Source: Coriobacteriia bacterium
GTDB taxonomy: Bacteria > Actinomycetota > Coriobacteriia > WRKU01 > JAENWW01
Direction: 5' to 3'
DNA length: 38,927 nucleotides
Assembly (NCBI GenBank): GCA_016649875.1
Contig: JAENWW010000014.1
Coordinates: 1-38,927 of the forward strand
Below are positions 11,989-31,849 of this stretch, piece by piece (position 1 is the first letter of the stretch; each line of letters starts with the position of its first letter). The notes beneath the pieces were generated by a model. The model saw nothing but the letters and a program-made list of their open reading frames with translations. It searched no databases and was not told the DNA's origin. The position numbers were made by a program, and so were the translations under genes.

Positions 11989-12462
11989 TTATTTCTTCTT
12001 GGTTTTTCTCGCTGCTTTGGCAGCGGCGCTCATCGCATGATATTGCTCGACCGACACACCGAGTTGGTGCGCCTGCACGAGAGGGCGTACCTGTCTGAGG
12101 TCTATCCACCATGCAAAACCGACCAGACCGAGCGCAATCCACGACATGGCCAGACTTATGTACTGCCCCCCCTTACCGACTAGGGGTGCAATCGATTTCG
12201 TGGTGAGAATCAAGGAAATCACCAGTATGACGATGGCAATTCCGAGCACCGTCCACCACAGTCTGCGCAATCTCTTGTACTCGGGAGAATCGGGCATAGA
12301 CGCCGCATAGCGCTCTTTAACCGACTGCTTGGCAGCGGTTTTCTTCGTCACGGGGGAGGAATCCTTGCGAATCGGTTTTGCCGAAGCAGCCGACTTGCGC
12401 GTCGAACCCTTGGGCTCCTGACCTTTTTTGTAGCGGGCATTCATCGGGCTTCGTCTACTCAT
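11989..12462 (-). CDS. Small basic two-helix membrane protein coupled to purC
   Basis: A 157-residue protein of unknown function. The first 65 residues are strongly basic and low in complexity (many Lys, Arg, Ser, Ala), without a signal peptide. Two hydrophobic helices follow, at about 68-88 and 100-120, so the charged N-terminus and the basic C-terminal tail (KAARKTKKK) probably both face the cytoplasm. The ATG overlaps the purC stop by 4 bases and has GGGAG upstream. purS begins 23 bases after it. It is therefore the second gene of the purC-purS-purQ-purL unit. I cannot assign a family. Confidence 0.75.
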   Translation of the reverse strand: MSRRSPMNARYKKGQEPKGSTRKSAASAKPIRKDSSPVTKKTAAKQSVKERYAASMPDSPEYKRLRRLWWTVLGIAIVILVISLILTTKSIAPLVGKGGQYISLAMSWIALGLVGFAWWIDLRQVRPLVQAHQLGVSVEQYHAMSAAAKAARKTKKK

Positions 12463-29756: not shown

Positions 29757-30446
29757 TTACCGCCTGACGTCATAAAGAATATGTCCGTCGACGACGTTGA
29801 GCGTTCGGGTCACTCTGGCGGCCAAATCATTGTCATGCGTGACCATGACGATAGTTTTCCCGTTTTTCACAAGTCGTTCGAAAAGTTCGAAGACCGAATC
29901 GGCGGTTTTCGAGTCGAGGTTGCCGGTCGGCTCATCGGCCACGATAAGCGGCGGATCGTTTGCAAGTGCGCGGGCAATCGCCACGCGCTGCTGCTGTCCC
30001 CCGGATAACGCCGCCGGCATTTTATGCGCCTGATCCACCATTTCGACTTGTTCGAGGTAGTGCAGGGCACGATCGAGTCGCTCATCACTGCGATACATGC
30101 CGCAAAAATCCATGGGAAGCATGACGTTTTCGACAACGGTAAGCGTCGGCAAAAGCTGGAAGAACTGGAATACCACTCCGACCGCTTTACCACGCCAAAC
30201 AGCGAGCTGATTCTCATTGAAAGTGTGCACGGGAGCGCCTTCGACGAATATTTCGCCACTTGTCGGATGGTCGATTCCGGTAATCATGTTGATGAGCGTC
30301 GTTTTACCCGAGCCCGATTTACCGATAAGCCCTATGAACTCTCCGGGAAAAACTTCTAAATCGACCCCGCGCAGTGCAGTGAAGGGGATTTCGCCCTTAT
30401 CGTAGGTTTTTGTGACATTTTTCAGATGAATGAGTAGATCTGCCAT
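29757..30446 (-). CDS. ABC transporter ATP-binding protein, MacB/LolD type
   Basis: A 229-residue ATPase that drives the permease encoded next to it. Walker [14 protein letters not shown]-loop [13 protein letters not shown], the signature [15 protein letters not shown], Walker [12 protein letters not shown] and the switch histidine in VMVTHD are all present. The frame is open 204 bases further upstream, but that stretch is unlike the family and runs through the sRNA region; ATG at 30446 has GGGG six bases before it and gives the family's normal start [17 protein letters not shown]. The gene heads the long minus-strand run that ends near 22012. Confidence 0.94.
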
Positions 30447-30527
30447 CATAAACCCCAAAAAATAACAGGACGGAATACTTATTTTATGATACCCCAGCGC
30501 ACAGGGTTTTGCGTGTGCCGTGCATAC

Positions 30528-30557
30528 AAAAAAAGTCCGCCTCTCGGGCGGACTTTT
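30528..30557 (-). terminator. Terminator of the candidate small RNA (and of rsgA read-through)
   Basis: AAAAGTCCGCC (30531-30541) pairs perfectly with GGCGGACTTTT (30547-30557) around a 5-base loop, with seven T at its minus-strand end. It also has a short T run on the plus strand, so it may work in both directions. Confidence 0.93.
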
Positions 30558-30616
30558 ACTACTTGAAATAAGGGGGCGTTTGTCAATTAGAGGGGGGAGG
30601 TACCAACAAACGCCCC
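30528..30616 (-). ncRNA. Candidate small RNA resembling actinobacterial 6C RNA
   Basis: On the minus strand a perfect 11-bp stem pairs GGGGCGTTTGT (30573-30583, plus strand) with ACAAACGCCCC (30606-30616). Its 22-base loop reads, in the transcript, GGUACCUCCCCCCUCUAAUU, with six C in a row. A second hairpin with an 11-bp stem and a run of seven T follows. An extended -10 is placed so that transcription would begin at or next to 30616, giving about 89 nt. 6C RNAs of Actinobacteria have C6 loops; here only the first loop qualifies. The open loop could pair with GGAGG ribosome sites. No reading frame is found in it. Confidence 0.68.
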
Positions 30617-30622
30617 GAATGA

Positions 30623-30650
30623 AGACTAACACGTTGAAAAACCAATGCAA
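30623..30650 (-). promoter_or_regulatory. Extended -10 promoter of the candidate small RNA
   Basis: On the minus strand TGTTAGTCT gives a TGn extension before TAGTCT (30623-30628), with TTGCAT (30645-30650) 16 bases upstream. Seven bases downstream of the -10 is the first G of the hairpin at 30616. The -10 matches four of six consensus bases, so the case rests on spacing and on the RNA structure. Confidence 0.42.
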
Positions 30651-30714: not shown

Positions 30715-31821
30715 TCAGCCGCGTCCGCTGCGCTTTCGCGCAGGCCTGCTTTCCTTGCGATTCCACGACTGTTCATCACGCATTCGAGCCAGATCGTCCA
30801 ACTCATTCACGAGTGTGAGATAGCGTTCAACTCGCGTCGCGGCGATAGTACCTGCCACAACCCCGCCGCGCACGGCGCAACCCGGTTCGTTGATGTGGGC
30901 GCAGTCGGCGAATTTACAGCTTGCGGCCGCCTCGGCGACCTCGGGAAACGCCAAGTCCAGACCCCTGTCACCGCGCCACAAAGCTATGGAGCGCATCCCC
31001 GGAGTATCGATGAGAACGCCTCCGTTCGGGATCTCGACGATCTCTCGCGCGACGGTGGTATGACGCCCTTTGTCGTCGACCATGCGCACTTCGCCGGTTT
31101 CTTGCATTTCAAAACCCACGAGTCTGTTGGCGAGCGTGGATTTCCCCACACCCGACGCGCCGACCATGGCCGCAGTCATTCCCGGTTCGATGAGGTCTTT
31201 GACTTCATCGACACCGACGTGCGTCACCGCGCTTTCCACGATGACGCGCGCTCCCGCGCTGACCGATCGCGCCAATGCGATCTGACCGTCCAGCGCCTGA
31301 TCATTCTCGATGAGATCGACCTTGGTCAACACGATGACGGGAGTGGCGCCGCTTTCGAAAGCTATCACCAACTCACGTTCGAGACGAGCGACATTGACCC
31401 CCGAGCCGGAGAGCGCTTGGACGAGGAACACCACATCGATGTTGGCGATGACGACTTGCTCGTTGGCGATGTCTGCGGGGTCTTTGCGCGTAAACGTTCC
31501 GTGACGCGGCAAGATCGCTTCGATGATGGGCATCTCATGACTTGCAGGCGATACGAGCGCCACCCAATCGCCGACGGCTGCGCGAGAAGCGGCATCGCGT
31601 TTGCCCGCTTTCAAGAGATGATTCGAAGGCTCTACTCGGCCGGTCCCTCGCCTGCTCGACGCAAGCGGCAAGCCGCGATCGACGCGAACGATGCGCGCTA
31701 AAAATGAATCGGGGATAGCGAGGGAAGCGAATAGTTCGAGAGTTTTTTCATCACAACCGAGGTGGTCGAAGTGATACTTCGACTCGCCCTCATCATGTTC
31801 ATATAGGTGCGTATCTGTCAT
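30715..31821 (-). CDS. rsgA: Ribosome small-subunit-dependent GTPase A
   Basis: RsgA (YjeQ), 368 residues, a circularly permuted GTPase that helps 30S subunit maturation. After an OB-type N-terminal domain the motifs come in permuted order: G4 TKVD (166-169), G1 GASGVGKS (221-228), G3 DTPG (272-275). The C-terminal zinc finger uses Cys302, Cys307, His309 and Cys315 (CKFADCAH..EPGC). The C-terminus is very basic (RKESRPARKRSGRG), fitting rRNA contact. The ATG at 31821 is chosen; an in-frame TTG at 31830 is the alternative. The ribosome site is weak. The candidate sRNA follows 98 bases after its stop. Confidence 0.96.
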   Translation of the reverse strand: MTDTHLYEHDEGESKYHFDHLGCDEKTLELFASLAIPDSFLARIVRVDRGLPLASSRRGTGRVEPSNHLLKAGKRDAASRAAVGDWVALVSPASHEMPIIEAILPRHGTFTRKDPADIANEQVVIANIDVVFLVQALSGSGVNVARLERELVIAFESGATPVIVLTKVDLIENDQALDGQIALARSVSAGARVIVESAVTHVGVDEVKDLIEPGMTAAMVGASGVGKSTLANRLVGFEMQETGEVRMVDDKGRHTTVAREIVEIPNGGVLIDTPGMRSIALWRGDRGLDLAFPEVAEAAASCKFADCAHINEPGCAVRGGVVAGTIAATRVERYLTLVNELDDLARMRDEQSWNRKESRPARKRSGRG

Positions 31822-31849
31822 AGAACCCAATCATACTATATGAAACACG

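Follow-up and report, generated by a model that had tools for sequence, protein, structure and literature searches.

A small RNA gene of about 89 nt, real and conserved, lies on the minus strand (30528..30616) of the window, that is, the whole 38,927-nt stretch of Coriobacteriia DNA analyzed here—contig 14 of its genome, referred to as G000. We regard it as quite probable that this gene encodes a stand-alone, trans-acting sRNA that has a paralog in the same genome and belongs, in divergent form, to a family of C-loop RNAs found in Coriobacteriia. For the class as a whole, we lean toward the view that Coriobacteriia harbor an unrecognized, RpoN-dependent branch of 6C-type RNAs, which often occur twice in a genome and are associated with loci for phosphate uptake and WYL regulators. 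In the window lineage, which is devoid of RpoN, both copies would then have been switched to a housekeeping-type promoter, with only a single anti-Shine–Dalgarno loop left. Post-transcriptional control by C-loop (6C-type) RNAs would thereby reach a class in which the Rfam 6C model RF01066 passes its threshold in none of the 120 genomes searched, and C-loop RNAs would be tied to sigma-54 in a phylum said by a 2011 survey of Actinobacteria to lack this factor (PMC3162934). The window RNA itself represents a natural single-loop version for asking if one C loop suffices. Sigma-54 start sites, two paralogs and a short loop seed lead to clear predictions.

On the minus strand, the element is arranged as GGGGCGUUUGUUGGU-ACCUCCCCCCUCUA-AUUGACAAACGCCCC, followed by a 15-nt spacer, an intrinsic terminator and a T tract. 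The first stem-loop, SL1 (30573..30616), is a 15-bp hairpin—11 Watson–Crick pairs and four more (U-G, two G-U and U-A)—whose stem closes the 14-nt loop ACCUCCCCCCUCUA at 30601..30588. This loop contains the CCUCC anti-Shine–Dalgarno core, then further C, and is likely the seed for mRNA pairing; its full complement reads UAGAGGGGGGAGGU. The second stem-loop, SL2 (30528..30557), is predicted to be an intrinsic terminator with a stem-loop at 30557..30531, a T tract that runs to 30528 and the loop CGAGA, which bears no C run. The 89-nt RNA folds with −38.4 kcal/mol, whereas shuffled versions average −20.1 (z −6.0); none of the 200 shuffles folds as well. A scan of both strands of the window for hairpins with a stem of at least 11 pairs and C6 or more in the loop returned exactly one, the chance expectation being 0.017 per window as estimated from first-order Markov shuffles.

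Transcription is predicted to start at about 30616 from the extended −10 TGTTAGTCT (30623..30631, minus strand). A generic sigma-70 scanner did not report this element, as there is no good −35. A GG-N10-GC (sigma-54) element is absent upstream of the window SL1. The first-pass annotation had already described a hairpin with a C6 loop ahead of a terminator, with the C run in only one of the two hairpins, and both points are confirmed, the stem amounting to 15 rather than 11 pairs around a 14-nt loop. The extended −10, which it proposed to set the start on the first base of SL1, is conserved at an identical distance in a related genome.

This related genome, G001, belongs to another genus of the same family, which is represented by these two genomes only; G000 was read in stretches. 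The counterpart in G001 reads GGGGCG(U)CCGUUGAU-ACCUCCCCCCUCUA-AUUAGCGGCGCCCC. Its loop is identical in 14/14 positions, and its SL1 stem shows two double changes from U-A to C-G, three one-sided changes that still pair and one lost pair. Loss of the C6 loop or a lack of covariation in relatives—objections raised beforehand—were checked, and the loop proved invariant on a stem with compensatory changes. The terminator differs in sequence between the two genomes, and the SL2 C run is missing in G001, too. The extended −10, TGTTATTCT in G001, is located 31 nt 5′ of the loop CCUCC in both.

A second C-loop RNA was found in G001 through a search for loop complements (L271 1452-1528, minus strand), and its counterpart in the window genome lies at about 12,290-12,380 on the minus strand of contig C5 (L306). 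Both second copies consist of a hairpin with a CCUCCCCCC-containing loop and a subsequent terminator, and they are located between pstB and nhaA on the strand opposite to both genes, convergent to pstB. The SL2 C run is absent from both. G001 PstB and G000 NhaA score above the NCBIfam cut-offs of TIGR00972 and TIGR00773, respectively, and G000 PstB, scanned as an N-terminal piece only, shows 71% identity to G001 PstB in tblastn. Upstream of the G000 second copy, a TTGG-N6-TGTT sequence can be seen, which is perhaps a decayed sigma-54 promoter. Of the two separate pst phosphate-transport clusters that G000 carries (L277 and L306), one seems to precede a phoU-like gene and the other adjoins nhaA.

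Two-hairpin RNAs with UCCUCCCCCCUC as their first loop came to light in other Coriobacteriia families by way of weak, sub-threshold RF01066 matches. A gapped pattern then yielded matches in 56 of the 300 genomes searched, with a few chance cases in coding or low-complexity DNA among them. We read 58 two-hairpin elements (L162-L182, L184-L191, L202-L230) and aligned 43 sequences. Most elements bear the 11-nt core CCUCCCCCCUC in their first loop, which is identical in the window loop. In the alignment of 43, 97.3% of cells are paired, and two-sided changes occur at 14 of 20 pairs. Shuffling gives 17.3 two-sided cells and slid controls give 8-22, compared with the 75 observed. None of the eight two-hairpin loci scanned with Rfam rises above threshold; these RNAs are not in Rfam, and a limited search of the open-access literature found no publication on them. 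Two copies per genome are often observed. A PstB-type gene converges on at least 19 of the elements, and a WYL-type regulator gene follows downstream of at least 14; these neighbor groups were formed by BLAST, with one member per group tested by HMM.

The motif TGGCA-N6-TTGC—the −24/−12 promoter motif of sigma-54—occurs just upstream of 55 of the 58 elements, and the remaining three have GG-N10-GC at the same place. The predicted start, about 12 nt after the GC of the motif, coincides with the base of hairpin 1 (SL1). RpoN (PF04552; for example G015:C1:368569-369045, L231) is present in 67 of 140 class genomes, including nearly all genomes seen with two-hairpin RNAs. The window's order lacks it throughout (14 genomes, G000 included).

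The window RNA has in common with this family the CCUCCCCCCUC first loop, SL1 at the predicted start and SL2 as terminator, the parts following one another in the same order. It differs by the lack of both the SL2 C run and a sigma-54 promoter, and it is located between rsgA and an ABC gene instead of being pstB-convergent or WYL-upstream. The second copy of its genome, however, does share the pstB-convergent position. The R1 model, for which the two window-type RNAs served as sole input, recognizes the family: its 15 best matches in 90 kb are all at family elements (E 8.8e-5 to 0.23) and span SL1 to SL2, whereas on true 6C loci it yields mostly single hairpins at 9-19 bits. The model built from the two-hairpin family (R2) scores the window copy with 15.9 bits (E 0.11 in 42 kb), a value that unrelated terminators in the window also reach, and a genome-scale search with R2 did not report the window copy. 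The best R2 matches in the window's order resembled repeats, terminators or coding sequence rather than family members. On balance, membership is most likely but not proven, the R2 score being weak and the SL2 C run and sigma-54 promoter missing; the window RNA would be a divergent, single-C-loop member of this unrecorded Coriobacteriia family.

Such a loop might also have arisen independently, making the window RNA an anti-Shine–Dalgarno sRNA of the same working that descends neither from the Coriobacteriia C-loop family nor from 6C. Its stem cannot be aligned with those of the family, R2 is weak, and anti-Shine–Dalgarno loops arise elsewhere: in NfeR1/ar14 and other "cuckoo" RNAs of Alphaproteobacteria, which are unrelated and silence ribosome sites, the anti-Shine–Dalgarno loop CCUCCUCCC is invariant on variable stems (PMC10746234). 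These RNAs belong to another phylum and bear three loops, each with CCUCCUCCC, compared with the one C-rich loop of a different motif in the window RNA; the likeness between the two is likely convergent. The ar14 model gave no match on the window element and one sub-threshold match on a single Coriobacteriia family relative. A further case was met when GTDB contigs were searched for exact matches to a loop 16-mer: apart from G001, only one Saprospiraceae genome showed such a hairpin, the other sites having none. This genome has curlin-like genes preceded by a hairpin with the identical 14-nt loop ACCUCCCCCCUCUA and an unrelated 11-bp stem (L039 4467-4511, minus strand); an exact loop match occurs in none of 60 relatives of that genome. 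Nevertheless, we consider convergence unlikely, since a paralog in the same genome occupies the family-like position convergent to pstB, R1 picks up family elements over SL1 through SL2, and the 11-nt loop identity exceeds what the CCUCC core would need. Viral contigs carrying the loop 14-mer were also inspected and showed no comparable hairpin.

6C RNAs are defined by two stem-loops with about six C in each loop (PMC4046766). Like these RNAs (RF01066, including Mycobacterium B11), the window RNA is a short RNA of Actinomycetota with a stable C6-loop hairpin, and its SL2 corresponds to the terminal 6C hairpin that acts as intrinsic terminator. Unlike these, it carries C6 in SL1 only, with CGAGA in the SL2 loop, and its stem is unrelated to 6C stems. 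Its predicted length of 89 nt compares with about 100 nt for the discrete 6C transcript. CUCCUCCCCCC is the first loop of some true 6C RNAs (L197, L198). RF01066, with a gathering score of 47 bits, has no match at E up to 10 in the 601 bases around the element, nor genome-wide in G000 or G001, and the matches of a wider Rfam scan on the window element were by chance only. The window RNA is not an Rfam 6C RNA. From the first-pass reading as a possibly divergent 6C-like sRNA, the stand-alone gene with its own promoter and terminator is retained, and a match to RF01066 is not found. The suggested kinship with the Mycobacterium 6C RNA B11 gives way to that with the nearest relatives found, the Coriobacteriia RNAs with sigma-54-type promoters, which Rfam misses.

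Concerning function, pairing with G-rich start regions and a block of translation is most likely, being the mechanism best supported by analogy. A housekeeping-type extended −10 promoter would start the transcript on SL1, which would hold the loop ACCUCCCCCCUCUA single-stranded, and SL2 would end the transcript. The loop would then most likely pair in trans with G-rich Shine–Dalgarno regions and block ribosome entry on several mRNAs—one loop serving where 6C RNAs use two. B11 of M. abscessus still represses when one C loop or the other is mutated, and repression is abolished only with both mutated; hence, a single C loop can suffice (PMC10470900). The combination of invariant anti-Shine–Dalgarno loops and variable stems in NfeR1/ar14 (PMC10746234) is also the pattern of the window RNA. 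In relatives with RpoN, the family is located behind the sigma-54-type promoter; the RpoN-less window lineage shows another promoter and no C run in the second loop.

We searched for near-full-length complements of the loop and ranked start regions according to their pairing with it; the ranking includes many spurious ORFs and is not a target list. Neither approach revealed a target with strong, conserved complementarity. The complement search gave one clear start-site match, GGAGAGGGGAGGAGAAUAAUG, at L258 about 1500 (G000:C2), ahead of a formate-dehydrogenase cytochrome-b-like gene, which makes this gene a candidate target; no counterpart was recognized in G001. In the ranking, pstC (G000, L277 18225-19220, minus strand, C1) has GGGGGGAG near its start codon, which would form eight pairs with the loop; the start region reads GGGGGGAGAGUGAUG. 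As a candidate, pstC fits the pstB link of the paralog, and it is one of many in an uncorrected ranking. The targets mscS, purS and AOR that had been put forward earlier rest on generic GGAGG sites, which are not evidence of regulation.

Instead of being an mRNA seed, the loop could act as a protein ligand, i.e., as a sponge for a C-binding regulator, with WYL proteins as possible partners. The WYL-type regulator genes downstream of at least 14 family elements would suit this idea, and WYL domains bear an Sm-like fold, RNA having been proposed to be among the ligands that PafBC might bind (PMC6789036). However, no WYL gene was seen adjoining the window-lineage copies, the loop has the exact CCUCC anti-Shine–Dalgarno core, and the loops of B11 and NfeR1 act by pairing (PMC10470900, PMC10746234). 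We therefore hold a protein-ligand role to be improbable and prefer the mRNA-pairing loop.

The gene context bears on whether the element acts on its own. Downstream lies a MacB/LolD-type ABC ATPase gene (29757..30449, minus strand; ABC_tran PF00005, best NCBIfam match LolD below cut-off), and upstream rsgA (30715..31830, minus strand; TIGR00157 above cut-off, PF03193). In G001, the ABC ATPase gene is also found downstream, but a rubrerythrin-like gene—named from its sequence—replaces rsgA upstream. A box of the form GGTAT[CG]AT is conserved 3′ of the terminator in both genomes and might provide a separate −10 for the ABC gene (TATCAT, 30486..30491, minus strand). A C7-loop hairpin in G009 (L107), between rplL and the ABC ATPase ortholog, was set aside as an ortholog of the element, because it is at the rplL-terminator site of sister genomes and is missing from this position in all other genomes of the order.

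Conceivably, SL1 and SL2 serve the ABC transporter operon downstream as a leader or attenuator that controls read-through into the ABC ATPase gene, as this gene follows in both genomes at about 80-100 nt from the terminator. Against this stand the strength of the terminator SL2, with which no fold visibly competes in the 89-nt structure, the conserved −10-like box of the ABC gene, and the location of Coriobacteriia family members at other genes. Moreover, the second copies are antisense to both of their neighbors, so that a leader function is unlikely for this RNA type. We thus judge the leader explanation very improbable; the window element is most likely a stand-alone sRNA gene. Hardly any credence is due to a mere double terminator of rsgA with a loop rich in C by chance: the element does follow rsgA by about 100 nt on the same strand, but SL1 itself has no T tract, the chance expectation for its hairpin is as low as given above, and G001 keeps both loop and −10 behind a different upstream gene.
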